A stretch of DNA of 64,000 bases from Tetracentron sinense (Eukaryota > Streptophyta > Magnoliopsida > Trochodendrales > Trochodendraceae). The position numbers were made by a program, and so were the translations under genes. Location of the stretch: positions 15,438,547 through 15,502,546 of the forward strand of contig CM026556.1 in assembly GCA_015143295.1 (NCBI GenBank), in the 5' to 3' direction. This document shows, piece after piece, positions 1 through 59,915 of this stretch; the stretch's first letter is position 1; the number at the start of each line of letters is the position of its first letter. Below the pieces are notes generated by a model. That model worked only from the letters and a program-made list of their open reading frames with translations, was not told where the DNA came from and did no database searches.

Positions 1-1130
1 TCCTCCTGAGGTGCTTTTCCTGTCATCAGCATTTCCGGCCCAATCGGCATCGGAACATCCAACTATCGTGGCATTTGTATCAAAAGAATACAAGAGGCCA
101 AATGATAGAGTTTCACTCACATATCGAATGATACGCTTAACTGCAAGCAAGAGAGACTCTTTTGGGCTCGCTTGATAGCGGGCACATGCACCAACACTAA
201 AGGCTATGTCAGGTCTAGTAGCAGTTAGGTAGAGTAAACTACCAATCATGCTTCTATAAGAAGTTTGATCAACATCTTTGCCTGACGCATCTTTACTAAG
301 TTTTGTAGTAGAACTCATAGGAGTTCTTACATGCTTAGCAGAGCTCATGCCAAATTTCTTCACTAGATTTTTAGCATATTTGATTTGAGATACTGAGATC
401 CCAGAATCCAATTGCTTGATCTGAAGACCAAGGAAGAAACTTAGCACACCAACCATGCTCATTTCAAATTCATTTTTCATTTGTTCAGCAAATGAACGAG
501 CATGTAAGTCTAATGTGGAACCAAACACAATGTCATCAACATATATCTGGGCGATGACAATTTCACCTTTCACATTCTTTATGAAAAGGGTTCTGTCTAC
601 TCCCCCTCTCGAAAATCCATTTTCCAAGAGATAAGTAGTCAGCCTCTCATACCAAGCTCTTTGAGCTTGCTTTAAACCATAGAGGGCCCCTTTTAGCCGA
701 TAGACTTGATCAAGGTGATGTGGATCTTTAAACCCTTTTGGTTGTTCCACATAGACTTCTTCATGTAGAATGCCATTCAGAAAGGCACTCTTAACATCCA
801 TTTGAAAAAGTTTGAATTTCATATTGCAAGCCACAGCTAGAAGAATTCTTATTGATTCTAGCCTGGCTACAGGAGCAAACGTTTCATCAAAGTCAATACC
901 TTCAATTTGGGTGTATCCTTGTGCAACTAACCTAGCCTTATTTCTTATGATAGTAACTTTTTCATCAGATTTGTTCTTGAAAATCCATTTGGTACCTATC
1001 ACATTTGTATTGTTAGGCCTAGGTACTAAATACCAAACATCATTCCTAGTAAACTGAAGTAACTCTTCTTGCATTGCATTTATCCAATTATCATCTGCAA
1101 GAGCTTCAACTACATTCTTGGGTTCAAAAG
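1..1130 (-). pseudogene. pol: Reverse transcriptase and start of RNase H of the copia element
   Basis: Copies element RNA into cDNA inside virus-like particles. The minus-strand frame is open from about 2052 to the window edge. RT motifs in order are a KWIFKNK segment, [18 protein letters not shown], the [11 protein letters not shown] block and the catalytic YVDD box at about 536-525. RNase H begins near the left edge with ADWAG and a DDRKSTSG block at about 45-5. I see no stop or frameshift in this part. It is untranslatable only because of upstream nonsense codons in the single Gag-Pol frame. The start and end are domain estimates, since this is one polyprotein and not a separate gene. Confidence 0.9.
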
Positions 1131-2052
1131 ATGAAGTATAGCAAATGTAGCTAACTTCATTTTCAATTTGTTTCCTCGTTCTCACTCCACTTTCAACATC
1201 ACCAATTATATTAGTGGGGGTGTGAGGACTCATGACCCTAGGATGTGTAGGTTTTGATGGAGATGTTTGCTTATCAATAAGTGGAGTTGAAACAGTTTCA
1301 ACATTTTCATTATGAGCACTTTCATCATCCTCAAGTTGCACATTTTCAACACTGGAGTCATCCACAACTACATTTATGGACTCCATAATTGTAGAGGTTC
1401 TCAAATTATACACTCGATAAGCTCTACTGTTGGTGGAATATCCAAGAAATATCCCTTCATCACTCCGGGATTCAAATTTCTCCAGTTGCTCTCTATCCTT
1501 AAGGATATAGCATTTACTTCCGAATTCTCGAAAGTACTTGACACTAGGTTTTTTGTTATTCCACAACTCATATGGGGTTTTCCTTGTTCTAGGTCTTACA
1601 AAAACTCTATTAACTATATAGCAAGCAGTGTTAACTGCCTCAGCCCAGAAATGAGAAGCTAGATTGTTGCTATGAAGCATAACTCTAGCCATCTCTTGGA
1701 GAACCCTGTTCTTCCTCTCTACTACACCATTCTGCTGAGGTGTAATAGGTGCAGAAAATTCATGTTTGATACCCGACTCATCACAAAAGTCGTTGTACTT
1801 AGAGTTTTCAAACTCCTTTCCATGATCACTTCGTATTCGAGTGATTGGGCATCTTTTCTCATTTTGAATTTTCAGGCAAATACTTTTGAAATTGTCAAAA
1901 GCATCGGATTTCTCTCTTATAAATGCCACCCATGACATTCTTGAGAAATCATCAGCAGTAGAAGGCTTTCCTAGTTTGGGAACACCTCTCACAAGCTCTT
2001 GCTTAGAGATTTTGCATAGGTCTTTGAAGTTCATGTGACCTAGTCTTCGGTG
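1131..2052 (-). pseudogene. pol: Integrase of the copia element, with internal in-frame deletion
   Basis: Would insert the cDNA into host chromatin. The frame starts after the TGA at 2055-2053 with HRRLGH, the H-H half of the zinc-binding domain. It then passes directly from [10 protein letters not shown] to DDFSRMSWV. In copia integrases this interval, from memory, carries the CX2C half of the zinc finger and the first catalytic Asp (DLMGP block), about 50 residues. Both are missing, with the junction at about 1955-1968, and the frame is kept. The second Asp ([11 protein letters not shown]) and catalytic Glu (NGVVERKNR) are present, followed by the usual C-terminal core. The enzyme must be inactive regardless of the nonsense codons. 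Confidence 0.85.
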
Positions 2053-2829: not shown

Positions 2830-4761
2830 TCATATGTGACCTCTCACACCACAAAAGTGACATGTGGGTATGAATCTTGGGAGAGGAGGAGGATTTCTTC
2901 TAATAGGAATTTGATTCCTCAAAGCATTCACTCTAGGAGCTGTATTACTAGGCTTTGCAAAATTTATATAAGCCTTAGCACTTGATGTAGAAGGTAGATT
3001 CACTTTAGGATCAGAATGTATTGGCTCAAACACTACACTAGCCATTGTACCAACAGCTAAAGGACCAGCTGGTGTGTCAGCATGTCCTATCCCAGATCTA
3101 CTTGAATTTGACCCATACTTTCTAACTAATTCATCTAGGCAGCTAGTGTTACCAAACATTCTTACTTCTTTTTCAAGAGTATAGACCTTCTGAATCAAGT
3201 CAGTCTTGTCTTTAAGGGTAATTTGATGTTCTTTTTCAAGAGATTTCACCTTATCAACAAGAGAGTCTTTAAAAGTTTCCAGCTCCATTTGCAGAGTTCT
3301 TAACTCTTCAATTTCTTTCATGGAAGTGTCTCTTTCAACTTCTAATTTTCTAATCACATTAGTCAATGAGACATTCTCTTCCAAAAGACATTGAACTTTC
3401 ATAACAAATGCTTCTTTTTCATTTTCCAACTGACTAACTAGAGCACTCTTCTCTTCTGCTACTAGTTTACAAATATCTCTTTCATTTTGAATGATTTTGA
3501 GTTTTTTGCTCAAGGAGATTTTTGTTTTAGTCAGCTTCAAACTTTCAGCATACAACTTATCATCAGTTGTTTTCAAATCTTCATCACTTTCAGAGTCAGT
3601 TTGACTCTTCTGTAAGTCATCACTAGACTCAGTATGAACACTATCATCACTTCTATCCTTTTCATCAACCTCAGAGGTAGTCTCAAGAATCCCAGAAAGG
3701 GAAACAGTGAAAGCCGTATGATTTCCAGTACCTTCACTTGAAGAGGAACTGTCTGATTCTTCATTCTCGGAATCACTCTCATCCTAACAGGCATTCATCA
3801 CCTTGCCCTTACTATTCTTCTTGTTAGGACAGTTAGGTGAAATATGATCGAAGCCATGGCATTCATAACATTGAACACCTTGGGATTTCTTGTCGCCACT
3901 CTTGGAATTTTTCTTGTTTTCCCAGGGCTTAGACTTTGACTTCTCAAAAGATTTTCCTCCCTGTTTGGGATTAAACCTCTTTTTCGTTCTAAAAAATTTT
4001 CGAAATTTTTTAACGAAGAGAGCCATTTCTTCCTCATTCATATCTCCATCATTGTCATCCTCATCCAAAGTTTCCTTGATGGATTTCAAGGCTAAAGATT
4101 TGTTCTTCTTGGATGGACGTAGATTGAGTTCATAGGTTTGGAGTGATCCAACCAATTCCTCAATCTTCAGAGAGTCAACATTTTTACTCTCTTCAATTGC
4201 AGTGACTTTGGGTTGAAATCTCTCTGGGAGAGATCTAAGGACTTTTCTAACTATTTTGGACTCAGATATTTTCTCACCTAAATTGAAACTAGCGTTGACA
4301 ATGTCACTAAGTTTTGCATAGAATTCATCAAAAGTGTCATTGTCTTCCATGTTTAAATGTTCAAATTTGGTGGTTAACATTTGGAGTTTTGAGATTTTAA
4401 CAGTGGTAGTACCCTCATGGGTAATTTCAAGAATGTCCCAAGCCTCCTTTGCTGTTTCACATGAAGAAATTCGTCTGAATTCCTCAGCAGTGACTGCAGT
4501 AAAGATAGCATTGAGACCTTTAGTGTTCCATCCACTTGACTCAAGCTCTTCTCTGGTCCATTCATCAGAATATTTGACTACAGTCAAATCACCTACAGTT
4601 TTTATGGGTGTAGTCCACCCATTCTGTATAGACATCCAAATTCTCTCGTCAATAGATTTGAGAAAGGCTCTCATTCTAGCTTTCCAATAAGCATAATTAT
4701 TCCCATCAAAAAGTGGGGGACGAGAGACGGATCCACCTTCTCTTAGAGTACTCATGATCAC
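2830..4761 (-). pseudogene. gag: Sirevirus-type Gag (capsid, coiled coil, two zinc knuckles), one nonsense codon
   Basis: Structural protein that packages element RNA. The ATG at 4761 follows the PBS by 47 nt. The N-terminus carries the family block RPPLFDGNNYAYWKARMR. The first CCHC knuckle, CYECHGFDHISPNC, lies near residue 300. A TAG at 3786-3784 then interrupts the frame, which continues unchanged through an acidic Ser/Glu-rich stretch, a long coiled coil (about 3580-3130; heptad-rich KLEVERD and LEKEHQ segments) and the second knuckle CHFCGVRGH at about 2860, broken by TGA at 2832. The long coiled coil between two knuckles is the Sirevirus hallmark. No frameshift was needed to read the whole region. 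Confidence 0.9.
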
Positions 4762-4808
4762 GGATAATACAGGATCACACTTAAGGGATTAGCCTTATCA
4801 GTGAACAA

Positions 4809-4820: not shown

Positions 4821-5500
4821 ATTGAAATTTATCCAGATCAATGATCTCTAAGACCTAGAGGGGGGGTGAATAGGTCTATCTAATAATTTCTAACCAATTT
4901 TAATTTTTTCAATTAATATGTTTAGAAATCAATGAACAAGTCAATCAGACAATCCACACAAATCAAACACAGAAGATTTTTACGTGGAAAACCCTAACGG
5001 GAAAAAATCACGGCACCTTGTCCAACAATAAACTTCACTATGAAAAGATATCAAGTACAAGACAAGACCTTACCAAAACAGAAACGACGTTCCTAGGTAT
5101 AGACTCTTACTCTTGATTTCCACGAACCAGCAGGTTCAATCTCCGCCGTAGCAGCTTCGGTTCCACACCGACCAAATCTTTTCAAGCTACTTCAAAACCA
5201 CGATCACACACGATCGATCTCCTTCCACGAAGGCTCCGGATCAAACACCGTACACACACACAAGGTGTAGGGTTGTGAATTAATTTAAGAAATTTCAAAC
5301 CCTAGAGGGATCTCATACAGATCTGAGATCACACAATGCAAGATCAAAGGTTAGATCTATACTTGCATTCTCTAGGATCTAAGAAAGAGGACAGATCAAC
5401 AAAGATCTAATAAAAGCAATAAGAAAAACCCTAGAAGAGTTTCTCAGACCTCTACTCTTTCAAAAATATCAAAGACAAGAACTAGGTCTCCAAAAATTTG

Positions 5501-5510
5501 TTTATATAGG
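5501..5510 (-). promoter_or_regulatory. Probable TATA box of the copia LTR
   Basis: CCTATATAAA in sense orientation, 45 to 230 nt downstream of the palindrome array. Transcription should start about 30 nt further, near 5470, defining R. Confidence 0.6.
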
Positions 5511-5554
5511 GTTTAAGAAAAGAATCCACAAAAAGAAAAATTCTTTTTACGGGG

Positions 5555-5740
5555 ACCGATCGATCGGTGCTCACTACCGATCGCTCGGTCCAAAAATGAT
5601 CGCTCGGTCCTCATGACCGATCGCTCAGTTATAAATCATCTCTCTGGAAAAATACCCCATACAAACTTTTTGTCCAGTCGATAGCCACCGATCGCTCGGT
5701 AGGCCACCGATCGATCGGTCTCAACACCGAGCGATCGGTT
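5555..5740 (-). promoter_or_regulatory. Array of ACCGATCGATCGGT-type palindromes in the copia LTR
   Basis: About seven copies of a 14-bp palindrome, perfect (ACCGATCGATCGGT at 5555-5568) or with one change (ACCGATCGCTCGGT at 5576-5589, then near 5599, 5616, 5687, 5706 and 5727). They flank a spacer at 5641-5686 that is also found in Ty3/gypsy LTRs in this window. The position just upstream of the TATA box suggests a dimeric transcription-factor site or enhancer (inference). Conserved palindromes in Sirevirus LTRs are, to my knowledge, a described feature of the lineage. Confidence 0.8.
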
Positions 5741-6033
5741 GAGACAGAATTGTTTTCAAACCATGATTCATTTCATTGTTATTTGATTCAAATGAGATCA
5801 AACAACTTTGTTAGGTTTAAAACTATCCTCCTAGGTATGTTTAGAGTTATCTAAGCCAAATCCAACCTAGGTAGGGGTCTCTAAGTCCATTACCTGTCTA
5901 GATCCAGAGTAGAATCTTTTTCTTCTCTTTCTTCAATCTTCTTTAAGCTTTAGCTCTTTTCTTCTGACAAGTTGAACATGACTCGACGACTCGACTCACA
6001 TGACCTATCTAATGATCACGGAATTTGCCAACA

Positions 6034-6723
6034 ACTATTTAGGGATTTACAGTGGTCAAGGACGTCAGTAAAAATTCCATTTTTTGAGTCAAGTCTTGTA
6101 TAGTTCTTTTCTATAAAATGGTCTTTTTCCAAGCATGACTCAACATTTTTGTAAAAATGCCGAAAAAAAAAGTTCATGATGGTACGGCCTAAATCTTTTC
6201 AGAAGAGTTAGTGATTTAAAGCCACCCAAAAAAATAAAATTCTTATACTAACTAAGCTTGTTGGTTTAATGAGGGATTGCCCGAATATTCACCAAGCCAT
6301 CCACTTCAATTTCATAGTATCTAGGGGCAGCATATGTTAATGAGCAAGAAAAAGAAACCTCCAAAAGAGATCCTCAACCCCACTGAGCCAAGCCAAGTAA
6401 GAGAAAGCTCAATAATGACCCTAAGTATACAAAGATTAGCACCTTGCTAGGCCAAGTGCTAAGAGCGCAATGATACTACTTGCAACATGGTTACAAGTGG
6501 AGCATTCACTAAGTAGATTGGGGCATCATCGGGATAGACATCTTACAGTCTAAGGCATGGGCCATGTATAATCTCCTGAAGCACTCAATTCGTTCCACCA
6601 ATTTCAAGCTTCCAATCATCAATACAAGTAGAGCATTCACTAAGCAGATTGGGGCATCATTGGGATAGACATCTTACAGTCTAAGACATGGGCAATGCCA
6701 GCATTCAAAAGCTTGATAATTCA
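6034..6723. other. Non-coding stretch, probably internal 3' region of the Tat-type element
   Basis: No coding potential seen. It lies between the copia LTR end and the TSD of E1, and continues after E1 at 15713. It holds a 75-bp direct repeat (6492-6566 and 6623-6697, offset 131 bp, about 90% identical). Assignment to the Tat element is by position only. Confidence 0.4.
6492..6697. repeat. 75-bp direct repeat, two copies
   Basis: Both copies contain GAGCATTCACTAAG and GGATAGACATCTTACAGTCT in the same order. Copies at 6492-6566 and 6623-6697, separated by 56 bp. Confidence 0.85.
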
Positions 6724-6728
6724 TGCAC
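6724..6728. repeat. Target-site duplication TGCAC (left) of E1
   Basis: TGCAC immediately precedes the LTR start TGTAGAG. The same five bases recur at 15708-15712 after the 3' LTR. Confidence 0.85.
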
Positions 6729-6962
6729 TGTAGAGCCCCAAATCTTTATTGCACTAAGTGATGAATAGTGTGTGAATAGTACTCAAGTGTCGTTCTGTGC
6801 ACTAATGGACTTTATGTTAATATACGAGTTTGGATTTATGGCGTGCATGTTTCAATGGGCCTAGATATCACTAAGGAGCATGTATTAAGCATAAAAGAGT
6901 GTTAGAATGATATTGGAGGAGTTTCAAGTAATCGGAACAAGGTTTTACAGCAAAACAGGAGA

Positions 6963-7114
6963 TCACCGATCGCTCGGCGCCATCCTCCGATCGACCGGTC
7001 ATCTACCGATCGATTGGTAGCTATCGACTGGTCAACTTTTTTGTATGGGGAAATTTTCCGGAGAGGGTGTTTTCAACTGATCGCTCGGTATGTACCACCG
7101 ATCGATCGGTTATA
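6963..7114 (+). promoter_or_regulatory. CGATCG palindrome array in the E1 5' LTR
   Basis: Five or six copies of ACCGATCGATCGGT-like sites, with the shared GTATGGGGAAATTTTCC spacer at 7019-7080 in the middle. It ends about 50 nt upstream of the TATA box. Same arrangement as in the copia LTR. Confidence 0.8.
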
Positions 7115-7165
7115 CGCAGATTTTCTTCATCAAGGGTGTTTAAGACTTTAGCCACCACCCTTTGC

Positions 7166-7174
7166 CTATATAAG
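7166..7174 (+). promoter_or_regulatory. TATA box of the E1 5' LTR
   Basis: CTATATAAG in both LTRs (7166-7174, 14254-14262). Confidence 0.65.
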
Positions 7175-8578
7175 GGCTGGGTTTGTGCCTTAGGGTTTCA
7201 CAAACCCTTTGTACATTATTTTGGAGGATTGTGAAGAGGAGAAGAAGGTGAGGAACTACTTGTTGATCAAGCTTCTGGAAGATCAAGGTTCTTCCACTTC
7301 CTTTGGCGATTCTCAACCAAGAACTCAAGGTTCTTGCTTGTTCAAGCTCTTGAGAATCAAAGTCTTTGATTTCACCAAGGTAGATACACTCTACTACCAA
7401 TCTTGCAATCGTACTAAGTTACTAAATGATGTTCTTCTAAATCTATACTACTTATGTATATATATCTTAAATGTTTATGGTGTGAAAGTATGTTGTTTAT
7501 ATACTTGGGTGAAAGATACTATTATGATGCACTCTCAGTGTTTGATGAAATACCTCTAAGGGATTTTATGCTTAAATATGATGATTTATCTCATATGCTC
7601 ATATGCTCGCATGTCTCGCATGAATCAATGTTTTCCATGGATTTCTCAAAGTACGAAAAGGGGTTTTTCACTAGATGACTAATGAGGAACGATTCTAAGT
7701 AACTATATGATTTCTCTAAGATCATTTCACAAGCTCTACGGATCATGCTATGCTCACAAGGAACTCTATGATAGGCTCTAAGATCGTCTCACAAGCTCTA
7801 CGGATCATAAATGTAACGCTCTAAGATCTCTAAGGATATGCTCTATGTTGTGCTCTATGGTATCTCCATGTCTCTACAGATCATAATGACTCTAAGTAAC
7901 TCCATGAACTCACAAGAACTCACAAGGCTATGATTATCGCATGACTCACATGGTTACAGTTTTGGTTTTGGTTTCGAACCTCATCTCACATGTTATTTCA
8001 TGGTTTCCATGCTCTTACATGTTTTTAAGGATTTCATTCTCCATGATTCGTATGCTCTATGCTTAATGCTTTTTTGTTATTAGTTTGTATACGCTGAGTA
8101 TTCCACGCTCAGCCGAATTTGTTATCAGCGGCAGGTGCTTGGGCTCTGTTTGATATATGTGGCACGGAACCATGGTTAGAGGAAGAGTACTTCGACCCGG
8201 AGCCTTCCATGGATCATTATCAGGATGATGGTCCTATAGATAGGTGTCGAGACTTCGACTTTTGTTGATCGGCAGACTTAGAACTTTAAGATGTTATTTT
8301 GTTACGTGAGGGTGGGGTTTGTCCACTCCACTTTTGGGTTTCTCACATGTATATACTTTTGTTGGTTCATACTTGAACTGAGTTATAGGAGTATCGCTTT
8401 GCTTCCTCTATGTTTAGTATTTTATTCCGCTGTGCATTCTTTATCGCTTTCGCTAGATATGTTTGTGTTTCTGACAGGTCTCCACATGTGCCTTATGTAT
8501 TATACTGGAGGTATGATACGGCGGTGACGAGTCAATGTATCCCTAACTCCTAGGGGGTATTTTGGGTCACGACAAACT

Positions 8579-10377: not shown

Positions 10378-13300
10378 GTTCGTTACTAGTGAATGAGTGC
10401 TTAGCAAGGGTGTTAATCAACACGGGATCCACTCATTTGTTCGTCTCACCTAGCTTTACAAAAGGCTTTACATCCTAGCCGAGTAAGCTACCTCAGGAGT
10501 TGTCCATTTTGACCCCATTGGGCAAGTCTATAGAGACAAATAAAGTGTATCGGGGTAGTGTTGTGTAAGTTATACAGCACGAGTTGCCAGTAGACCTGAT
10601 CATTCTGGGATTTCAGGATTGGGATTTCGACGTCATTCTAGGTATGGATTGGCTCTCAGCTCACCATGGGCACGTGACATGTTTCGAGAAGGTGGTGAAT
10701 TTTAAACCCGCTAGGTTGAAGCCATTTCATTTCAGAGGACTTCAGAGGAGAGACATTGCTCATTTTGTAGCTCTTAGTCTCGAGAAGGTGGAAGTACGGG
10801 ACTCCACATCCATGCATGTTGTGTGTCAATATATGGATGTCTTTCCGGAGATCTTACCGAGATTGCCTCCTGATCGGGTAATTGAGTTCGCGATTGAGTT
10901 GGCTCTAGGCATGGCACCGATTTCTAGGGCTCCACACAGGATGGCCCCTATTGAGCTAAAGGAGTTAAAGGGCTAGTTTGAAGAATTGCAAGGCCTTGGT
11001 TTCATTCAGCCAAATGTCTCACCTTGGGGAGCTCCGGTGCTCTTTGTGAAGAAGAAAGATGGGTCTATGCGTATGTGCATTGACTACAGGCAATTAAATA
11101 AGGTCACGATCAAGAATCGTTATCCATTGCCTCGGATAGACGGCTTGTTTGATCAGCTGAAAGGTGCGAAGTTCTTTTCCAAGATTGACCTTCGATCTGG
11201 TTACCATCAGTTGAAGATCAAGAAGGAAGACATTCCGAAGACAGCGTTCAAGACTCGATACGGCCATTACGAGTTTCTAGTCATGTCTTTCAGGCGGACT
11301 AACGCACTAGCAGCATTTATGGATCTGATGAATCGGGTGTTCAGATCATCTCTCGATCAGTGTGTGATTGTGTTTGTAGATGATATCCTTGTGTATTCAC
11401 AGTCACAGGATGATCACACGAGAGATCTCCGCTTTGTATTGCAGACTCTTCGAGAGCATAGTCTGTATGCTAAGTTGAGTAAGTGCGAGTTTTGGCTGAA
11501 CAAGATGTCCTTTCTTGGACATGTAGTCGATCCTGCAAAGATTGAGGTAGTGATGAATTGGAAAAGGTCGAAGAGTGTTACCGAGATTCGTAGTTTTCTC
11601 AGCCTGGCAGGAAACTACAGGAGGTTTGTGGAGGGATTTTCAAGCTTAGCCGCTCCGCTTACCTATCTCACGCGGAAGAACACTAAGTTCACTTGGAGTG
11701 ACAAGTGCGAGGTGAGTTTCCAAGAGTTGAAGAAGAGGCTTACCACAGCTCCTATCCTCACAGTTCCATCCGGAAGCGGTGGCTTCGAATCTATAGTGAT
11801 GCCTCACTAGTTGGACTGGGATGTGTTTTGATGTAGCATAAATAGGTGGTTGCCTATGCTTCCCGTCAGTTAAAGGAGCATGAGCAAAACTACCCCACTC
11901 ACGACTTAGAGCTTGCAGCCATCGTGTTTGCATTGAAAATTTGGCGTCACTACCTCTATGGGGAAGAGTTCGTGGTGTTCACGGACCCCAAGAGCTTGAA
12001 GTATCTCTTTCTCCAGAAGGAGTTGAATATGAGGCAGCGACGATGGATGGAGTTTATGAAGGACTACGATTGTTCTATCCAGTACCATCCGGGTAAGGCT
12101 AATGTGGTAGCCGATGCTCTTAGTAGGAAACCTTATGGGGTTATGGCTCACTTGAGTGTACAAGAGTAGAAGTTGTTGAATGATATGTGTAACTTAGACA
12201 CTACTCTCAGGCATGTCACCTATGGGTTAGTGATGTCCAACATTGTGGTTAGGCCATATATTCTAAACCGGATCAAAGAGTTGCAAGATTCGGATGTCGA
12301 ATTGCTTGCTTACCGAGACAAGTCGGTTAGTAATGGCAGTCAAAAGTTTGCTTTGAATGGTGATGGTGCTATCACGTTCAAAGACAGGTTGTGCGTTCTA
12401 GCCGACACGGTGTTCAGGGGTGAGATTTAGGACGAGGCTCACCGATCCAAGTATACGGAACACCCGGGAGGTACCAAGATGTATCAGAATCTAAAGAAGC
12501 ACTACTGGTGGCGAAACATGAAGAGGGAAGTCACTGAGTATGTTGCTAGATGTTTGGTGTGCCAGCAGGTGAAAGCCGAGCATCAGAGGCCGGCAGGTCT
12601 TTTATAGTCCCTCCCTATTCCGGAATGGAAATGAGAGAATATCTTGATGTATTTCATCGTGGGTTTGCCATGAACGGTGAAGGGCTCCGATGCTATTTGG
12701 GTGATTGTAGACAGATTGACTAAGTCTGCACATTTCCTTCCGTATCGGACTACGTTCAATACAAATCAGTTAGTAGCCCTGTATGTCAAGGAGGTGGTTC
12801 GTTTGCATGGTGTGCCAGTTTCTATCGTATCTGATCGAGATCCTAGGTTTACTTCTAGGTTCTGGAAAACTTTTCAGGATGCTATGGGTTCTCGTTTGGA
12901 CTTCAGCACCGCCTTTCATCCTCAAACTGATGGGCAGACTGAATGGGTGAATCAGGTTGTGGAAGATTAGCTCCGAGCTTGTATGCTAGACTTTCAGGGT
13001 AGTTGGGAGGAACAATTGCCGTTGGTTGAGTTTGCCTACAACAATAGTTATCAGGCAAGCATCCAGATGGCGCCTTTCGAAGCTCTGTATGGTCGCAGTT
13101 GCAGATCTCCGCTATAATGGGATGAAGTTGGTGAAAGGAAAGTTCTTAGTCCTGAGTTGATCGAGCGGACCGTAGAAAGGGTCAAAGTTATCTGGGAGTG
13201 ATTGAAAACTGCTCAGGATAGGCAGAAGAGCTATGCGGATACTCGCTGTAGAGATTTGGAATTCCGAGTTGGAGATCGGGTCTTTGTGAAGATTTCGCCA

Positions 13301-13687
13301 AGTCGGGCAATCATGCGATTCGGAAAGAAGGGAAAGCTCAATCCTAGGTACATAGGACCATTTGAGATCATCACGAGGGTTGGTGAGGTTGCTTACAAGG
13401 TAGCACTACAGCCTCACATGGCAGCGATCCATAATGTATTTCACATCTCTATGCTTAGGAAATACATTTCGGATCCGTCTCATGTCATTGCTCTTTATCC
13501 TATGGAGAATAGAGAGGATCTCATGTTGGTTGAGCAACCAGTTCAGATTTTGGATCGTCGCGATCAAGTATTGCGTAAAAGGACTATCCCTTTAGTCCTT
13601 GTGAGATGGCAGCATCATTCTACGGAAGAGGCTACATGGGAACGAGAAGCAGATGTGAAGGAGAAGTACCCTCACTTGTTCGAGTAG
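10378..13687 (+). pseudogene. pol: Pol of E1: protease, RT, RNase H, integrase, chromodomain (many stops)
   Basis: Starts at the intron acceptor, in frame with gag. Protease: VLINTGSTH (Asp of DTG replaced by Asn) with TAG 10476 and TAA 10566. Linker ILGMDWLSAHHG. RT 10977-11780 is open, with the catalytic FVDD at 11373-11384, but lacks about seven residues after FLGHVV relative to E2. A 1-nt loss near 11788 moves the frame at the RNase H start (YSDAS). Stops follow at 11834, 11843, 12167, 12428 and several more through integrase. Integrase keeps CLVC, DRDPRF and DGQTE motifs. The last segment (13202-13687) holds the GPFEI domain and the chromodomain with VLVRWQHHSTEEATWERE. Confidence 0.9.
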
Positions 13688-13776: not shown

Positions 13777-15707
13777 TGTAGAGCCCCGAATCTTTATTGC
13801 ACTAAGTGATGAATAGTGTGTGAATAGTACTAAAGTGTGGTTTTGTGCACTAATGGGCTTTATGTTAATATACGAGTTTGGATTTATGGCGTGCATGTTT
13901 CAACGGGCCTAGATGTCACTAAGGAGTATGTATTAAGCATAAAAGAGTGTTAGAATGATATTGGAGGAGTTTCAAGTAATCGGAACAAGGTTTTACAGCA
14001 AAACAGGGGATCACTGATCGCTCGGAGCCATCCTCTGATCGACCGGTCAACTACCGATCGATCGGTAGCTATCAACTGGTCAACTTTTTTGTATGGGTAA
14101 ATTTTCTAGAGAGGGTGTTTTCAACCTATCGCTCGGCTGAAACCACCGATCGACCGGTAAGCCACCGATCGCTCGGTATGTACCACCGATCGATCAGTTA
14201 TACGCAAAGTTTCTTCATTAAGGGTGTTTAAGACTTTAGCCACCACCCTTTGCCTATATAAGGGCTGGGTTCGTGCCTTAGGGTTTCACAAAACCTTTGT
14301 GCATTATTTTGGAGGATTGTGAAGAGGAGAAGAAGGTGAGGAACTACTTGTTGATCAAGCTTGTGGAAGATCAAGGTTCTTCCACTTCCTTTGGCGATTC
14401 TCAACCAAGAACTCAAGGTTCTTCCACTTCCTTTGGCGATTCTCAACCAAGAACTCAAGGTTCTTGCTTGTTCAAGCTTTTGGGAATCAAAGTCTTTGAT
14501 TTCACCAAGGTAGATACACTCTACTACCAATCTTGCAATCGTACTAAGTTACTAAATGATGTTCTTCTAAATCTATACTACTTATGTATATATATCTTGG
14601 ATGTTTATGGTGTGAAAGTATGTTGTTTATATACTTGGGTGAAAGATACTATTATGATGCACTCTAAGTGTTTGATGAAATACCTCTAAGGATTTTATGC
14701 TTAAATATGATGATTTCTCTCATATGCTCAGCTCGCATGTCTCGCATCAATCGATGTTTTCCATGGATTTCTCAAAGTACGAAAAGGGGTTTTTCACTAG
14801 ATGACTAATGAGGAACGATTCTAAGTAACTATATGATTTCTCTAAAATCTTTTCACAAGCTCTACGGATCATACTATGCTCACAAGGAACTCTATGATAA
14901 GCTCTAAAATCGTCTCACAAGCTCTACGGATCATAAATGTAACGCTCTATGATCTCTAAGGATATGCTCTATGTTGTGCTCTATGGTATCTCCATGTCTC
15001 TACGGATCATAATGACTCTAAGTAACTCCAAGAACTCACAAGAACTCACAAGAACTCACAAGGCTGTGATTATTGCATGACTCACACGATTACAGTTTTG
15101 GTTTTGGTTTCGAACCTCATCTCACATGTTATTTCAAGGTTTCCACGCTCTTACATGTTTGTACGGATTTCATTCTCCATGATTCGTATGCTCTATGCTT
15201 TATTGTTATTAGTTTGTATACGCTGAGTATTCCACGCTCAGGAGAATTTGTTATCATCGGCAGGTGCTCGGGCTCCGTTTGATATATGTGGCACGGAACC
15301 ATGGTTGGAGGAAGAGTACTTTGACCAGAGCCTTCCATGGATCATTATCAGGATGATGGTCCTATAGATAGGTGTCAAGACTTCGACTTTTGTTGATCGG
15401 CAAACTTAGAACTTTAAGATGTTATTATGTTACGTGAGGGTGGGGTTTGTCCACTCCACTTTTGGGTTTCTCACATGTATATACTTTTGTTGGTTCATAC
15501 TTGAACTGAGTTATAGGAGTATCGCTTTGCTTCCGCTATGTTTAGTATTTTATTCCGCTGTGCATTCTTTATCGCTTTCGCTAGATATGTTTGTGTTTCT
15601 GACAGGTCTCCACGTGTGCCTTATGTATTATACTGGAGGTATGATACGGCGGTCACGAGTCAATGTATCCCTAACTCCTAGGGGGTATTTTGGGTCACGA
15701 CACGACA
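13777..15707 (+). repeat. 3' LTR of E1 (1931 bp)
   Basis: Matches the 5' LTR but has extra palindrome units (array 14011-14196), a 42-bp tandem duplication (14375-14416 and 14417-14458; one copy in the 5' LTR), and an extra CGACA at the very end. Taking 15707 as the end yields the exact TSD TGCAC; taking 15702, as in the 5' LTR, does not. Confidence 0.85.
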
Positions 15708-18782: not shown

Positions 18783-18905
18783 TGTCGGTTGACATCGTAA
18801 TGTGTTGTCATCCACCCCTTCAATCTGGTTGGCATCGTAATGTGTTGTCATCCACCATCCCATCACCCATCTAGTTGACATCGGAATGGTTGTCACCCAT
18901 CATTT
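18783..18905. repeat. 39-bp minisatellite (first block)
   Basis: Three diverged copies of GTTGACATCGTAATG...TCATCCAC, the same family as the large array at 22028-23060. Confidence 0.75.
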
Positions 18906-18925
18906 CAATCTTCAACACTTCAAAA

Positions 18926-19067
18926 TCAATCCCTTCTCTGAAGAGGTTAAAAGCAACACTTCAAAATCAATTCCTCCTGTGAAGAGGCTAAAAGCAATAC
19001 TTCAAAATCGATCCCTCCTATGAAGAGGCTAAAAGCAACACTTCATAATCGATCCCTCCTGTGAAGA
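18926..19067. repeat. 41-bp minisatellite, left part
   Basis: About 3.5 units of GAAGAGGCTAAAAGCAACA plus TTCAAAATCGATCCCTCCTG. The array is cut by the solo LTR and resumes at 21517. Confidence 0.9.
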
Positions 19068-19782
19068 TGTAACGCCCCGAAATACCCCCTAGGAGTTTAG
19101 GGATATTTTAGGTGTCACACTGCGTACCTATCAAACCATCATGTAATGCACAAGATAAAATACAATACTAACAACGATAATCAGAGCGCGGAAACTATCA
19201 TATATGCGGAAGCGTAAACAAATTTTCATTTCTTCTGATGATCCAAAATAGTATTCCAAGTTAACATAAATACAAGACATGTCTAAGTCTAAGGTGGACA
19301 GGCCCACCTATCAAAATATCAAAATACACAAGACCCTCTCATACTCTCCCCTCAACAGTAGTCGAGGTATGGCCACGCATCGAGGTCTCGGTCCGCCTGA
19401 GACTGTAATGGAATAGCCGGCTCTCTCTCCTCTATATACTCTTCCTCAACCCAAGGCTCTGGGTCGAGGGCTCCCTCAGTACCTGCCGACATGAAAGTAC
19501 GACTGAGCATGGAATACTCAGCGAGTACAAGCTACTAGCAGACCATAACAATAATAAAACACACAATAGTAATATCATACAAGCAGTAATAGAAACATCA
19601 CAAAGAAACAGTATAGGGCATGACACAATACAAGCATCCTGACGTGTGTACATGAATGCGAAAACGCCGATAAAACTCATGCTTGAAAACCCCTGTCATG
19701 TCCCGGTATGCCTCGTAGAAATCATGTATGCGTGCATGCATGAATGCATGATCATCATCTTGTAAACCTCCATCTTGTAACT

Positions 19783-20132
19783 TGTGAGCCAGAGGCTAGC
19801 ACCCGAATCTCCCTGGGCTGCCAACCTCCTTGATATGCAATGCACTTGTGAGCCAGAGGCTAGCACCCGAATGTCCCTGGGCTACCAACCTCCTTGTTAT
19901 GAAATGCATGGTTTTCTTGTGAGCCAGAGGTTAGTACCCGAATGTCCCTGGGCTACCAACCTCCTTGACAATAGGTGATTTTTATTACTTGTTTAGTTTT
20001 CTTGTGAGCCAGAGGCTAGTACCCGAAGGTCCCTGGGCTACCAACCTCCTTGACAATAGGTGTTTTAAGGGTTATCTTGTGAGCCAGAGGTTAGTACCCG
20101 AATGTCCCTGGGCTACCAACCTCCTTGACATG
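19783..20132. repeat. Tandem repeat in the solo LTR, five units of 64-86 bp
   Basis: Each unit reads TTGTGAGCCAGAGG(C/T)TAG then CCCTGGGCT(A/G)CCAACCTCC. The halves GAGGTTAGTACCC and GGGCTACCAACCTC can pair as a hairpin of about 12 bp with one mismatch and one bulge. Confidence 0.85.
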
Positions 20133-21117
20133 CAATATTTTCTTGTTGTTTATTATATGCACATGCTCTTGAAATCACGGTTCATGCTATCATGCGTGCT
20201 CGTGTACGTGTCCATAGTGACAATCATGATAATGGGAATAACCAAGATATGACATTATAATTCAATTCATGATATGAACATAGGTAACATAAGTAGTTTG
20301 CATAACATTTGATCAATTTATCATTTATAAGAACGCATGCATAAAACCCATTTCTATATTCTTCATTGAGATCATTTATTCATAGTTTAGGTATTTTGTC
20401 AAACACTTTCATACATTATTCCTTAGTAGTTTATCTCCTTCTTTTAAATGCATATTTTCCATTCAATCACACAATGGTAAGTTTGTTATTTGTACTATGC
20501 CCATCCTCCATTTTCCAATCCACAACCCACACATCATACATCACACATTCGGCATCCAATCGCCGTATCCAACCTCCATCCAAGCATCCCTACCCTTTCT
20601 TTATCTTGTTTATATTTATTATAGATGACACATTTTGCAAGGAATAAAACATACTGACAAGAATCATATTTCATAAGGAAAAACCTAGATTTATTGCTAG
20701 GGTAAGTTAGTAGGGTGTACTAACCTTGCTCAAGGCTTGATCCTTGGTGGGAAACTTGATTGAAGCTCCAACTTGAAAGAAGAACACCTTTGCTTGAAGG
20801 AGACTTGAGTTGGAAAAGAAACCCCTTTCAAAAACGTGTTTGGGTTGCTGCCCTAGCTTGGAGAATGGTTCAGACACGAGCTTGAGCCTTGAACTTGAAG
20901 CAAATCCAAGTTTGAGGACGACCTAGGATGGTCCACCCCTTTGATTCCTTCCTCAATGGAAATCCTAGGTTAGAAACCCCCTTCTTCTCACTCTCTATCT
21001 CTCAAAATCTCTTAAGTGACGAGAATGAGGCCCTAAGGCTCGGGCAACGCCTTATAGGAAAGGGTTTAACCCCCAAAAGACGAAAACGCCCTTAATGAAA
21101 TTTCTGCAAAAACGCAA

Positions 21118-21310
21118 AGACCGAGCGATCGGTGGTTATGACCGATCGATCGGTTGCCTACCGAGCGATCGGTTGATTGACCGAGATCTCGGTCAAAAAT
21201 CAACTCTCTGGAAAATTTCCCCATACAAATTTTTTGACCGTGCGATAGCTACCGATCGATCGGTTATGGACCGATCGATCGCTGACTGGACCGAGCGATC
21301 GGTTCTCTGT
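21118..21310 (-). promoter_or_regulatory. CGATCG palindrome array in the solo LTR
   Basis: Copies of ACCGATCGATCGGT-like sites on both sides of a spacer (21195-21252) homologous to the spacer in the copia and E1 LTRs. Lies upstream, in sense, of CCTATAAG at 21058-21051. Confidence 0.8.
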
Positions 21311-21516
21311 ATGTCTGGACTGTTTTGACCATATCTTTTGACTCGCTCGTCGGATTTTGACGATTCAACTTGCGTTGGGTTCGTCTTTCGAAAACGCACA
21401 TTTCTGACGTTTCGCAATTTCTGATTTCTCTCCTATTTATCAATTAGACTACGTAGAAGGCCATTTAACTACGAAATACTTATTCATTTAAAGATGGGAA
21501 AGTCTGGGGTGCTACA

Positions 21517-22025
21517 GAAGAGGCTAAAACCAACATTTCAAAATCGATCCCTCCTGTGAAGAGGCTAAAAGCAACATTTCAAAATCGATCTCTCCTGTGA
21601 AAAGGCTAAAAGCAACATTTCAAAATCGATCCCTCCTGTGAAGAGGGTAAAAGCAACACTTCAAAATCAATCACTCCTGTGAAGAGGTTAAAAGCAACAC
21701 TTCAAAATTGATCCCTCCTGTGAAGAGGCTAAAAGCAACATTTCAAAATCGATCCTTCCTGTGAAGAGGCTAAAAGCAACATTTCAAAATCAATCCCTCC
21801 TATGAAAGGTTAAAAGCAACATTTCAAAAATCGATCCCTCCTATGAAGAGGCTAAAAGCAACATTTCAAAATCGATCTCTCCTATGAAGAGGCTAAAAGC
21901 AACATTTCAAAATTGATCCCTCCTATGATGAGACTAAAAGCAACATTTCAAAATCGATCCCTCGTGTGAAGAGGTTAAAAGCAACACTTCAAAATCAATC
22001 CCTCCTGTGAAGAGGCTAAAAGCAC
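21517..22025. repeat. 41-bp minisatellite, right part (about 12 units)
   Basis: Continuation of 18926-19067; units differ mainly by single transitions. Confidence 0.92.
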
Positions 22026-22027
22026 AT

Positions 22028-26214: not shown

Positions 26215-26219
26215 GATCA
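26215..26219. repeat. Target-site duplication GATCA of E4 (left)
   Basis: Right copy is GATCG at 32464-32468, one transition different. The duplicated bases are the Asp-Arg codons of the host pol. Confidence 0.8.
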
Positions 26220-27187: not shown

Positions 27188-27189
27188 AT

Positions 27190-27201
27190 TGGTATTAGAG
27201 C
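27190..27201 (+). promoter_or_regulatory. Primer-binding site of E4
   Basis: TGGTATTAGAGC, one transition from the tRNA-iMet complement; two bases after the LTR. Confidence 0.9.
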
Positions 27202-27250
27202 AGGTTTACTAACTTTTTAGTGTGATCTTGTCTCATATTTTTCGGTGAAT

Positions 27251-30957: not shown

Positions 30958-30969
30958 CAAGGGGGAGAT

Positions 30970-32463
30970 TGTAAAGTCAATGTTTTTTTATTGGCATATT
31001 CCGATGTCAAAACAATGAGTCTAGGTGTCTAGGAGTGTTTCTTGTGTCATTGTCGTCAATCATCCACAACAAGTGAAGTTGAAGACCGTTGAAGACACGG
31101 TTTGATCATTTCCTTCATAGGATGGTAAATGACCTAGATACCATGCTACCATAGGTGGGAATTGACTTAGAATAATCCTAACATGTTGCCTTAGGTGGTA
31201 AGTGTCCTAGACTAACCATACGGACCCTATGTGATGAGATAAACAGTGCAAAACTTCTTTAAAATTCTGAAATTTTTCAAAAAACCAAGGTTGCTTGTTT
31301 TGGGCATATCTCCCAAACCGTAGCTCGGACTTTGCTCCATAATATGTCAAATCGATCGTGTCAAAAAGAGATACAACTTTTGTGAAGTGACCGAGAATTC
31401 AAAATAAGGTTTCAAATTCGGTTTTCACCTCAGGGTCGACCTTGGGCTTTGAGGGTCGACCCTGAAGTGCTAAAATTAAGTATGGTGCAATTTAATAGAA
31501 AGTTCAAAATTTGAGGGTCGGCCCCCAAGGATACTTGGGTCGACCCAAGTGCACATTTGGGTCGACACAAGTATCCTTGGGGGTCGACCCTGGTATGGGA
31601 GTTATGCTAAATCAACCCCTTTGCTTGCCTCTTTGGTTTTTAACCTATTTTAGCAACTTCTAGATATATTTTTTGATCCTCTATTTATCATGAACCCTTC
31701 TATTTCGTGGAGTATAACTTAGGGAGTGTGTGGAGAGAGTTTTTAAGTTTCTCCAGAGGTTATAGAACCCATGAAAATTTTTTTTCTCTACCCCCTTTGT
31801 TAGTGCATTCAACCTAGAGTTTGCAAGCCCAAAGTTCCAATTTTGCTTGTTTAGACTTGTCCTTTGAAAGAGTTCATCTAGGTGTTGATTCTTATCAAAC
31901 CATCAACCCATTCTAGATAGAACACCTTGGCCGGAGTGTTCCGGAGCCTTTGCGAAGGAGATCGATCCGAAACAGATCATGGTAGTGTGATTTGGTCGAT
32001 GGAATCCAAAGCCGTCATTGACGGAGACCGATCGGAAGGTCGTGGACTGTTTTCGAGACACAATGAGAAGTACGAGCAGCTACAGTTTATCACGGGACTT
32101 GAGAGTACGTGATAACTTTTTGAGGCTTGGAGGACTAGAAACTGAAGGATCGAACTGTCAAGTCCGAAGGAGTCAAGTTCGAGTCTTGTAAGTTCTTGTT
32201 TACTTTATCTTAGTGGATTCTCATGGCTGGACTAGGTCCCGTGGTTTTTCCTGAAAGGGTTTCCACATCAAAATCCTTGTGTTATGGTTTGATTGTTTTT
32301 CCTATTTCCACACTTAAATTTTATCATCCCTTAAGTTAATAACTTAATTGTTAAAATCATCAAAAGGGTAAATAGACTTTTAGGGAAACCATACCATCCC
32401 CTTGAACTTGTGAGATTCTCAACTCAAACATCAGATTTGAGGTTCATCGAATTGATTTTTTCA
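30970..32463 (+). repeat. 3' LTR of E4 (1494 bp)
   Basis: Starts TGTAAAGTCAATG, ends GATTTTTTCA. Contains GGGTCGACCC motifs (31434-31590) including a 76-bp inverted repeat. Confidence 0.92.
31515..31590. repeat. Near-perfect 76-bp palindrome in the E4 3' LTR
   Basis: Arms 31515-31550 and 31555-31590, 36 bp each with three mismatches by hand alignment, loop GCAC. An inner perfect 18-bp palindrome ACTTGGGTCGACCCAAGT sits at 31533-31550. Confidence 0.9.
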
Positions 32464-33978: not shown

Positions 33979-36004
33979 TGTAGCACCACAGATATTTTTG
34001 ACATGTATTAAAGCCTTAAGGTCATTTTCTTGAGTTAAAAATTGGATTTTTGAAGTCGGGTCTATTGAAAACCCGGGCTGTTGAAACCCAATTGCAGACC
34101 AGTCAGCTTTAGGGGTAATTTGGTCCATGAATAAATAAGAATTGAAATATTCTAAAATGCCAGAATTTTTCATCTCCGAATGACGAGTCCAATGCAAGTT
34201 GAATTGTCAAAATCCGACGAACGAGTCAAAAGTTATAGCCGAAATACCAAAATAGGAAAATCTGGAAAAATTTTGTCAAATTTACGAACAATCGTACAGA
34301 CCCTACGAACGATCGTAGGTGAGTTACGATTGATCGTAGAAAATCTACGATCAACCGTAGAATTCCAAAAATTGCCAAACTCTCTATAACATTTACGATC
34401 GATCGTAGAAACTTACGACCAGTCGTAGAGATGTTACGATCGATCGTAGAAAACCTACGATCGATCATAGGTCGCAAACCCATAATTTTTTTACAGGATT
34501 TTTGGGGTTTCTCCCTTTGCCTATAAATAGGGGTTACATTTGGGGTTTTTGGTTTACCCTAAACCTAGAGAGAGTCTTTGGGAGATTAAGAGAAGAAGAG
34601 GGCTTCTAAGACAGGGTTTTCATCCTTAAGGAGAGTTGGATCATTTGGGTGATCTAGATCATCCCCAAAGCTTGGATTCTTCAAATCCAAGGCAAAGCAT
34701 GTAAGGAGCACGTCCTCCAAGCTCGGCAGCAACTTCATTCACGATATTGAGGGTTTTCTCTCATCCATTTGAAGGTCGGTACCTCTATTCCCCAATTTGT
34801 CATGTTTTCATTCCTTTATTAATTGTATGCTCTAATTTCTTACTTTTCCCTAAATGTTTACATGATATGAGATGAATCCCATGAATAGATGATGAACTTG
34901 GATGATGGATGCTATGGATGGTTGAAATGTGATGAGAAAATGAAAATGACATTTTATTCATAATAAACACACTTGATTTGGTGAATGAAATAAACTTTAC
35001 TCACTTTCTAGAATGGCATGATTGTAGATTTACTCGCTTTCTAGAATTGCATAATGGTAAATTTACTTGCTTTTAATTAATTGTTGCCTTGAAAATATTC
35101 AATTTCTATGTCTTGAATTGTACATGAACCACGAGCACGACATGTAGGTCATGAATTAGGGTTTTTCAAGTATGAACATCGAGTTTTGATTTCAAGAAAA
35201 CAAGAATAAAATGACTCGATTCACAAACACCATGACAAGGCCAAATGTAAGGGTTGGTAAAAAGGTAGGGCATATCCTCAGGTATGTCCTATCTCACTTT
35301 TCACAAGGACAAGCAAGATGTTAGTGCACCTTTCAAGCATGCATGTTTCCATGAAGGGTGCTTGCACCTGACTTCAAGTTGCTTCTATTGCATTTTTGCT
35401 GAAGGGAGTTTATACTCCTGACTTCAAGTACACGATGATTTACCAAAGTTTCACCGATCATGATTTCAAGCATGCGTGAATATCAATTGCTTGCTATTAT
35501 GTTTAATGTTATTTTTCTGCTTATTGTTATTATTATTATTATGCACTGCTTCCATGACTTGTTGGTTAGTAGTAGGTACCCGCTGAGTATTCCATGCTCA
35601 GCCGTACTTTTGATGTCCACAAGTGTTAGTGGAGCAACTGCTCCTTTTGATATATGTGGTCTCGGTCCATGGGAGAAAGAGGAGTACGTAGAGGAGGTTC
35701 CAGCTAGTGAGTCGAGGATGGGGAGAAATGGCCTTATCTAAATTATGTCTAGTGACTTTGAGAGTGCAAGAGAGAGATACTTGTGTATTTTGCTGTGGGC
35801 ATGTCCACCTTGTCTTTTGGATATTGTATATAATTTGGGATACTTATTACATATATATGTGAGATAGGTATTTTGCTTCCACTGTATCATGTATTTGTTT
35901 CCACTATTACATCCTCTGACTCTCTTTTGCAGGATTGTCGCCAAGTCATGTCAAGTCTAGTCCAAGATTCACTCTAAGTCCTAGGGTGGGTTTGGGGCAC
36001 GACA
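33979..36004 (+). repeat. 3' LTR of element A (2026 bp)
   Basis: Starts TGTAGCACCACAG, ends GGGGCACGACA. Contains the conserved block (34181-34245), a TACGATCGATCGTA palindrome array (34282-34471), TATA CTATAAATAG (34521-34530), a hairpin (about 35262-35295) and two CTGACTTCAAG repeats (35370-35430). The next bases GGTTA would be the TSD; the left copy is outside the window. Confidence 0.88.
34282..34471 (+). promoter_or_regulatory. TACGATCGATCGTA palindrome array in the element A LTR
   Basis: About eight copies of TACGATCGATCGTA-like sites, perfect near 34392 and 34436, ending about 50 nt upstream of the TATA box at 34521. The core CGATCGATCG equals that of the E1 and copia LTRs but the flanks differ (TA..TA in place of AC..GT). 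Confidence 0.8.
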
Positions 36005-46147: not shown

Positions 46148-48709
46148 TGTCGCGACCCAAAACCAACCCTAGGAGTTAGAGTGAACTTTGGACGACTAAT
46201 CATGGATTACATGACTTGCTTGACAAACCAACCTGCAAAAACCCACAGAGCATATACAAAAGAGGACATAAATAGCGGAAACATACTCTAACATAACACA
46301 GCGGAAGACTAACAAACCTCTATGTATATACATACGTAAATCTAAGTTTATACAAAAAGAATCCATAAGAAAGTGCGGACAGACCCGCCAAAATACATGA
46401 GTGTATCTCTCATCTCACCCACAGCTATCCACTCAGAATCTAACACCACCTACTGATAACCCTCTACGGGAGGTTCCTCCAAAGGCTCCTCAACGTACTC
46501 CTCTTCCACCCATGGACCAGGAGCACAAACATCAAATGGAGCAGCAGCTCCCTCAGAACCTGCCGACATAATAAGTACGGCTGACAATGGAATACTCAGC
46601 GGGTACTAAATACTAACCAACAATTATAGCATAAAAATGGCAATACATAATCAGGAGCAATTCATATATGTCAAACGGAAACAATTCATATCATACAAGG
46701 AAGTAAAGCAGTTTATAATCATGCTTGTAATTCGTAGAAAACCGATAAATCCTCTTGAAAACATCGTGCACTTGACTTGACTTGAAATATCTTTTCGTAC
46801 GTGAAAGCTTGTCTTGTCTATCTTGCTTGATTCTTGTATGTCGTGTCATGTCATGCATGCTTGCTTGTGATCATGTAACTTGTGAGATGCTCTTGTGAGA
46901 TGCACTTGTGAGATGCCTTGAGAGGGAAGGGAGACCCTTCATTATGCAATGCACTTGCGAGGGAAGGGAGACCCTTCTTTATGATATGTATGTACTTGCG
47001 AGGGAAGGGAGACCCTTCTTCATGATATGCACTTGTGAGTGAGGGGAGACCCCTCGTGGAATGTTGGTTCTTGTCTTCTTGTGAAAAGCGAGGTAAAACA
47101 TATCGTAGGATATGTCCCACCTCTAACCATGTTCTTGAAAACCTCGATAAATCATGCCATGCATGTCGTGCTCGTGGGAACCGTGTACATACTTGCATTC
47201 CAATTAAAGATGACATTGGGTAATTTCACAACACATATAGCATCAAAGATTGAGAAATTCAATATTCATAGCATTTAGGGAAAGCAGGAAACACACTATC
47301 ATAGGCCCTAGCAATATTCAGAATTTCTTAGGTATGCATTTCCTAATTCACAGCTCACTTTATTCACCTTGGCATTTCATCAAACATGATGTGTTCATTA
47401 TGGATTTACCCTACAACATGCTTTTCTAGATGGGTTTTTACTCAATCATACATGTATGTTCATTATTGGAACAATGCCCTTCCCCATTTGTTCATCACAC
47501 ACAACCATTGGCATCCAATCGCCCATTCCATCTCCATTCACCATTCACCATTCACCATTTACCATTCACCATTCACCATTCATCCATCTCATAGCACATG
47601 TGCAAATGAAAGAAAATCAAAAGAAAGGAAGGGGAAAGAAGAACTATAACGAGGAGGGTAGTAAAAAGTACCGACCTTGAAGAGGTGAGCAAGAAACCCT
47701 CTTTCCAAATGACTGTGTAGCTGCTGCCCTAGCTTGGATCGCGAGCTCCACAATGCCTGAACCGAAATCTTGAAGGAAACGGGCTTGAGGTTGATCTAGG
47801 GTTTCTAACCCTTTGATTTCTCTCCAAAATGGAAACCCTAGATTGGGATCGCCTTCTCCTCTTTCTTCTATTCTCTCAAACTCTCTAAGTGTTGAGAATG
47901 AGCCCTAAAGGCTCGGGTTAAACTCTTAAGGTAAGAGTGAACTGACAAAAGACCATAACACCCTTACTAAATTTCTTGTAAAAACACGAGTGTCGAACTC
48001 GTGGTGGCTGTGAACAGTGCCAACTCGTGGTGCTGTGAACAGTGCCAACCCGTGGTGCTGTGAACAGTGCCAACTCGTGGTGCTGTGAACAGTGTCAAAC
48101 ACGTTGTCCGTTGTGAAGGGTGCCGAACCCGTTGTCACGTTGTGTAGTGCTTAGTGCTGAGCTCGTAGTCCGTTGTGTTGTGCCTAGAGCTGAACACGTT
48201 GTCCATTGTGAAGGGTGCCGAACCCGTTGTCACTTCGTGTCGTGCATAGTGCTGAGCCCGTAGTCCGTTGTCTTATGTACAACGTGCCGGTGGTGAGTTG
48301 TACAACGTACCCGTGGTGAGCTGCACAACGTGCCCGTGGTGAGCTGCACAACGGATGTACACAGTATACGTTATCAGAGTACGTTGTCTATGCTACGTTA
48401 TCAGAGTACGACATCAGAGCACGTCCTTAGTGCCTTCCGAGCTACGTCCTCAGTGCATAACCGAGCTACGTCCTTAGTGCATCACCGAGCTACGATTTCC
48501 TACAGGTCCAGACTGTTTTGGCCATATCTTTTGACTCGTTAGTCCGATTTTGACGATTCAACTTGCGTTGTGTTCGTACTTCGAAGAGGAACATTTCTGA
48601 CATTTCGAAATTTCTAAATTATTCCTCATTTATTAATTATACCTCTTAAAAAGGCAAAATGACAACGAAAGTGTCATGTATTAAGCATGAAAAAGTCTGG
48701 GGCTCTACA
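46148..48709 (-). repeat. 5' LTR of E2 (2562 bp)
   Basis: Same termini as the 3' LTR. It carries one more GTGCTGTGAACAGTG unit (four, about 48005-48095) and one more GTGGTGAGCTG unit (three, about 48285-48345), together explaining the 48-bp difference. Confidence 0.95.
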
Positions 48710-48714
48710 AAAAC
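48710..48714. repeat. Target-site duplication AAAAC of E2 (right)
   Basis: Identical to 38449-38453. Confidence 0.95.
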
Positions 48715-59767: not shown

Positions 59768-59915
59768 ACAGACCAACCAGTCGACTGCTCTCACTACCGG
59801 TCGACCGCTCGCCTACCGATCGACTGCTCGACCCACTGGTCAACCGGTGTCACACTAAAATATGTATGGGAGAATTTTCCTGTGAGGGGTTTTTGGACCG
59901 ATCGACCGCTCCTCG
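59768..59915 (+). promoter_or_regulatory. CGGTCGACCG-type palindrome array in the solo LTR
   Basis: Sites such as CCGGTCGACCGC, ACCGATCGACTGC and ACCGATCGACCGC, about 70 nt upstream of the TATA box, on both sides of the shared spacer at 59859-59894. Confidence 0.7.

Follow-up and report, generated by a model that had tools for sequence, protein, structure and literature searches.

LTR promoters are usually treated as a property of the lineage, and dyad boxes have so far been described as a Sirevirus trait; a 2016 paper that, by its title, concerns palindromes in the LTR regulatory region names maize Sireviruses only in that title. The RM boxes of Sireviruses are palindromic and form CpG islands ahead of the TATA box (Bousios et al. 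2010, PMC2829016). The same account, whose abstract names Ty1/copia only, calls these boxes Sirevirus-specific relative to other Ty1/copia elements, with Tnd-1, ACAATCGATTGT, as an exception to the CGG-CCG signature (PMC2829016). On the gypsy side, the LTRs of Del elements are described as carrying plastic CpG islands, defined by composition and not by dyads (Cruz et al. 2014, PMC4029996). Reports that LTR retrotransposons recombine and switch templates concern members of one family and complex Triticeae insertions (PMC5668417, PMC1950507).

Here, we analysed a stretch of 64,000 nucleotides of Tetracentron sinense DNA (the window), a sample that holds one LTR of the copia element concerned. 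The first-pass annotation had noted a likeness between this LTR (5686-5625, minus strand) and that of a nearby gypsy element (7019-7080, plus strand), which we recover as 47 of 62 identical positions (75.8%) without gaps, using LTR slices with other or approximate ends. The shared unit exceeds 62 nt and forms a U3 cassette in which CpG-rich 14-bp dyads (ACCGATCGATCGGT type) lie on either side of a 43-nt core. It is a discrete homologous block that stands in sense, before the TATA box, on the LTR backbones of two superfamilies.

The superfamily labels given to the two elements agree with their proteins. The copia element (copia1) has both a copia-type gag (frame 3787..4788, minus strand, PF14223) and an RVT_2 reverse transcriptase, in a pol frame that is cut by the window end (1..2052, minus). 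Its LTR of 1229 bp (4823..6051, minus) adjoins the primer-binding site and starts with TGTAAATC, as placed by alignment with the LTRs of a second copia element (copia2). The LTR end and junction, read at 4824-4809 on the minus strand, is CA/ATTGG/TATCAGAGC, the 5' LTR junction given for Sireviruses (PMC2829016), by which copia1 would be a Sirevirus (Ty1/copia). Near the LTR end, where a polyC-rich integrase signal was sought, CACCCCCCCTCTAG was read by eye, unaligned, at about 4868-4855. A protein search with the pol frame scored 8000 candidates; identity was 49-64% among the at least 120 matches listed, and those listed with an organism name were plants. The cassette occupies 5555..5739 (minus), with six dyads by the strict scan and in-register blocks, its core lies at 5630..5674 (minus, by PWM), and the TATA box (CTATATAA) lies at 5502..5509 (minus). 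In LTR positions, the dyads span 313-497 of 1229 and the TATA box starts at 543, which places them in the upper half shortly before TATA.

As a comparator, the LTR of copia2 (30971..32463, plus strand, with a second copy at about 26219-27190; all ends approximate) carries a different dyad array (GGGTCGACCC type) in the part that corresponds to the copia1 cassette. This element appears to be nested in a gypsy element at 25660-35600, with an RNase H frame before it, an integrase zinc-binding frame after it and an LTR from about 33979. In a gapped alignment, another stretch (62632-62943) shows 62% similarity to the LTR of copia1 in the 3' part of that LTR, and is perhaps a third copia LTR; a model search found no cassette near it.

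The nearby gypsy element (E1) combines an RVT_1 reverse transcriptase (10977..11807, plus) with a chromodomain (13202..13684, plus, PF00385), which would make it a chromovirus (Ty3/gypsy). E1 and a second element in the window, E2, may belong to the Del/Tekay lineage. Their reverse transcriptases are 81% identical, and the best BLASTP match of the E1 reverse transcriptase to the copia1 pol has an E-value of 0.14. The 5' LTR of E1 (6729..8574, plus) was delimited by the LTR pair, its start and the primer-binding site, and the 3' LTR spans 13777..15702 (plus) or possibly ends at 15707: TGCAC stands directly before the 5' LTR, at 6724, and again a few bases past the aligned end of the 3' LTR, at 15708. 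The cassette lies at 6965..7110 in the 5' LTR (core 7031..7075 by PWM) and at 14013..14198 in the 3' LTR, all on the plus strand, the latter with 40 bp of array absent from the 5' LTR. The pair differs by repeat-unit gaps of 40 bp and 42 bp (7075, 7282) and by substitutions, and these gaps are best omitted when the element is dated by LTR identity.

Closest to copia1 is the cassette of a complete solo gypsy LTR (solo21; 19068..21516, minus), at 21120..21303 with its core at 21194..21238 (minus, by PWM). A minisatellite of 41-bp and 39-bp units (18817-19067 and 21517-22960) is split by solo21, so the GAAGA at 19063-19067 and 21517-21521 is a clean target duplication. A weaker cassette (w598) lies in a gypsy-type LTR at 59782..59912, with its core at 59852..59896 (plus, by PWM). 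Two further gypsy LTRs serve as comparators: that of E2 (5' end at 48709) has a non-palindromic tandem array at 47986..48496 (minus) in the place where solo21 has the cassette, and another (g34), in an LTR starting near 33979, has a TACGATCGATCGTA array at 34283..34470 (plus). A tandem unit some 61 nt long (AGTGCCCGTACCTGGTCATAGTACACTA type) recurs beside or in gypsy-type LTRs at 38329-38449, 48712-48895, 53422-53727 and 60998-61517.

In sense order, copia1, E1 and solo21 share three 14-bp dyads, a degenerate fourth, the 43-nt core and then more dyads. If the core is counted from the end of the third dyad, with the degenerate dyad included, 23 nt of it precede TGTATGGG, and 34 nt separate TGTATGGG from the start of the next dyad, so that the distances between third dyad, TGTATGGG and next dyad are equal across the three LTRs. 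A strict scan, which required 14-nt dyads with no fewer than 6 of 7 pairs and 2 CpG, returned 28 dyads in the window against a shuffle mean of 4.1 (range 2-7, n=20). By position, 27 of them fall in stretches known or inferred to be LTR, and the remaining one, at 32785, falls in a coding frame. Successive dyads in copia1, both E1 LTRs, solo21 and g34 are 19-21 nt apart in 14 of 20 cases; the remaining six distances (38 to 92) bridge either the core or units that the scan missed. The window holds five full-length cassette matches, two of which are the E1 LTR pair, and all five lie in LTRs, in sense, before TATA. The orientation proposed by the first-pass annotation stands, as does the location upstream of TATA, but the claimed constancy of position holds only roughly: from TGTATGGG to TATA the distance is 154 nt in copia1, 124 nt and 164 nt in the 5' and 3' LTRs of E1, 170 nt in solo21 and 124 nt in w598. 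RNA folding of the copia1 and solo21 arrays gives z of about -6.4, a value that the palindromes themselves account for and that does not count as separate evidence.

A second block of about 120 nt (GACGAATCCAATGCAAGTTGAATCGTCAAAATCCGACGAACGAGTCAAAAG type) is common to several gypsy-type LTRs just before their arrays, at 21300-21463, 34127-34265, 40751-40914, 48493-48656, 50190-50310, 55015-55136 and 59614-59731. Six copies of this gypsy block (near 21300-21440) were compared with copia2; out of 300 shuffles, 7, 0, 1, 210, 149 and 9 reached the antisense score and 84, 36, 46, 148, 259 and 15 the sense score, so that a possible counterpart in opposite orientation is marginal.

Local alignment against shuffled controls, a check of the kind that had been suggested for the whole genome, was clear for unmasked LTRs and less so once the dyads were masked. 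With LTR slices of other or approximate ends (approximate also for E2, g34 and g50), unmasked scores were 73 for copia1-E1, 92 for copia1-solo21 and 26 for copia1-w598; the highest scores among 200 shuffles per pair were 22, 19 and 20. After dyad masking, copia1-solo21 remained clear (32 against a maximum of 19 in 200 shuffles), copia1-E1 became marginal (20; shuffle mean 14.3, maximum 21, 200 shuffles) and copia1-w598 was not significant (17 against a maximum of 25 in 200 shuffles). Because the masked copia1-E1 score is marginal, the copia-gypsy case leans more on the solo21 pair and the common register than on the copia1-E1 core. Leave-one-out core PWMs scored 36.8 for copia1, 32.8 for E1, 45.7 for solo21 and 24.5 for w598, and the best scores in 40 whole-window shuffles were 18.5, 18.5, 19.5 and 18.5, respectively; both the solo LTR near 21 kb and the weaker copy near 59859-59894 to which the first-pass annotation had pointed carry the module on this evidence.

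To follow backbone and array separately, each LTR was divided into a 5' flank, the array and a 3' flank (100 shuffles for copia1, 60 for solo21). The 5' and 3' flanks of copia1 match the 3' LTR of copia2 (z 9.6 and 13.3) and its 5' LTR (z 5.8 and 11.2), and its array shows no match to copia2 (z 0.1 and 1.8, 100 shuffles). This array matches E1 (z 23.4) and solo21 (z 37.4), and the copia1 flanks match neither (z 2.9 and -1.4 for E1, 1.0 and 0.6 for solo21). For solo21, the flanks match E2 (z 37.6 and 35.7), g34 (13.3 and 20.4) and w598 (19.3 and 7.8), and the array matches copia1 (33.8), E1 (28.7), w598 (9.4) and g34 (5.4) but not E2 (1.5, 60 shuffles). Homology between E2 and solo21 halts at the first dyad and restarts 6 nt past the last, with the different tandem array of E2 in between. 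One comparison counts against a clean mosaic, namely the slight similarity of the 5' part of E1 to copia1, whose score of 32 (z 3.5) is matched by the best shuffle. From these z-scores, backbone and array assort independently here: the LTRs are mosaics in which related backbones carry different arrays and unrelated backbones the same array.

Within the cassette, divergence is uneven. Core identity is 37/43 between copia1 and solo21, 30/43 between copia1 and E1 and 32/43 between E1 and solo21, so that the closest partner of copia1 is solo21 and not E1. The dyads are identical at 60 of 70 positions in each pair among these three, and the spacers are near chance (3/17, 4/18 and 6/17, taking the better of two end alignments), which means either that the exchange lies some way back or that spacers evolve quickly. 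In the E1 LTR pair, CpG-type transitions make up 8 of 11 differences in the array, 2 of 10 in U3 before the array and 12 of 46 in the rest. In the absence of selection, CpG dyads thus seem to be lost quickly, and array length changes; together with the conservation of dyads among near-random spacers, this decay suggests selection. An unrooted tree of the five cassettes joins the E1 pair (support 81) and then adds solo21 (60), by which the gypsy copies could still be one clade; copia1 is left with w598, which sits on a long branch, and the tree, which does not show copia1 inside gypsy, is too weak to decide.

The first-pass annotation had left a choice between exchange of promoter cassettes and strong convergent selection. 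The mosaic favours exchange, the near-chance spacers point to selection, and both may apply; the partnership with solo21, the varying distance to TATA and the likeness to Sirevirus boxes had not been foreseen. Convergence or very strong purifying selection, by which host factors would impose the same dyads and core without any exchange, draws on the conservation of dyads and core among these spacers, on the arrays of differently spelled dyads that other LTR types have in this position, and on a weak core-like match in copia2 that keeps this explanation alive. At the aligned place, a gypsy-only PWM, applied to LTR slices with other or approximate ends, scores 13.2 and 10.2 in the two copia2 LTRs; of 2000 LTR shuffles, 53 and 377 reach these scores, and the best score of a whole-window shuffle is on average higher (14.5, 60 shuffles). 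Elsewhere in the window, the copia2 PWM scores highest at the core of solo21 (19.4) and next at sites in E2 (18.2). Against selection by itself, the array is less conserved than the flanks where backbones are common (solo21-E2 and, with an array z of 5.4, solo21-g34), and a core identical at 37 of 43 positions in one register is long for convergence. We regard this explanation as unlikely, although it keeps real weight.

It is improbable that the match reflects a single event without wider meaning, in which a gypsy LTR, such as the neighbouring inverted one of E1, converted or patched this copia copy. The two elements face opposite ways, with the start of E1 about 0.7 kb from copia1, and the window has only one copia1 LTR; yet the copia1 core is closer to that of solo21 than to that of E1, whose own LTRs agree at 43 of 46 core positions, which makes a recent conversion by the E1 LTR unlikely. 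Nor did any gypsy flank come along, which also speaks against insertion of a whole gypsy LTR in copia1, and copia2 holds an array of its own in the corresponding part of its LTR. The match of the array alone, together with its position, makes the objection raised beforehand, that the segment is a gypsy fragment in this one copia copy, less likely for the one copia1 LTR at hand. The end dyads form inverted repeats and the edges against E2 are sharp, as would suit a small mobile element of foldback or MITE type inserted in each LTR. This account we consider highly improbable: the five full-length matches are all in LTRs, in sense and before TATA, E2 has another array at the place and not an empty site, and no target duplication was seen by eye at the edges in solo21.

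We give a probability of about 0.6 to the reading that one homologous U3 cassette was exchanged between the LTR backbones of the two superfamilies and that selection then kept its dyads and core. The likeliest route would be template switching at the repetitive array while both elements were expressed, and DNA gene conversion a less likely one; selection may then have retained dyads and core as the spacers drifted. The direction from gypsy to Sirevirus would be slightly favoured, since three gypsy LTR types and one of the two copia LTR types compared carry the cassette; against the exchange reading, the weak match to the core in copia2 is what one would expect if copia had possessed it earlier. 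We infer from sequence that the cassette has promoter function and binds protein: the 43-nt core, which lies 124-170 nt upstream of TATA, and the CpG dyads on either side of it would act as an enhancer, probably as sites for a dimeric host transcription factor; the dyads have no loop and follow one another at about two helical turns. That plant LTR promoters are modular in general, with a dyad-bounded U3 cassette passing between Sireviruses and chromoviruses, swapping among gypsy backbones and bringing unrelated elements of one genome under shared host control, is a proposal to which we give even odds. If exchange took place, copia and gypsy nucleic acids would recombine, a cross-superfamily cassette would account for shared expression patterns in unrelated elements, and dyad arrays could serve as markers of copia-gypsy exchange.

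Searches elsewhere returned little. In viral_contigs, two exact 20-mer matches were found, and the cassette model fits only over about that stretch. The degenerate core pattern gave no hits in viral_contigs or genome_contigs, the double-dyad pattern none in viral_contigs, and two protein scans of viral_contigs no relative, which says little because both collections are described as viral and prokaryote ones. A literal literature search for the core and dyad strings matched one bacterial paper, and no report of one array and core in both superfamilies appeared among the titles and abstract openings listed in literature searches that covered few subscription journals.

Like Sirevirus RM boxes, the palindromic CpG boxes of copia1 cluster in the upper LTR half, a short way ahead of TATA, and show strong identity within the element and divergent flanks (PMC2829016). 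Unlike RM boxes, which number at least eight copies in the order CGG-CCG, copia1 has six strict dyads in the order CCG...CGG, and the portion of the Sirevirus account compared here describes neither a shared core nor a gypsy LTR with the same boxes (PMC2829016). The resemblance to Del elements lies in a variable CpG-rich stretch of changing length in the 5' half of chromovirus LTRs; this locus has CpG dyads, and the eudicot Del elements covered in the portion of that work compared here all lack CpG islands, and no copia counterpart is given there (PMC4029996). Studies of template switching offer a possible route of exchange, their sections considered here making no mention of exchange across superfamilies (PMC5668417, PMC1950507). 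The class of array is therefore known on both the copia and the gypsy sides, and what appears to be new is one array that has the same core, in the same register, in both superfamilies.
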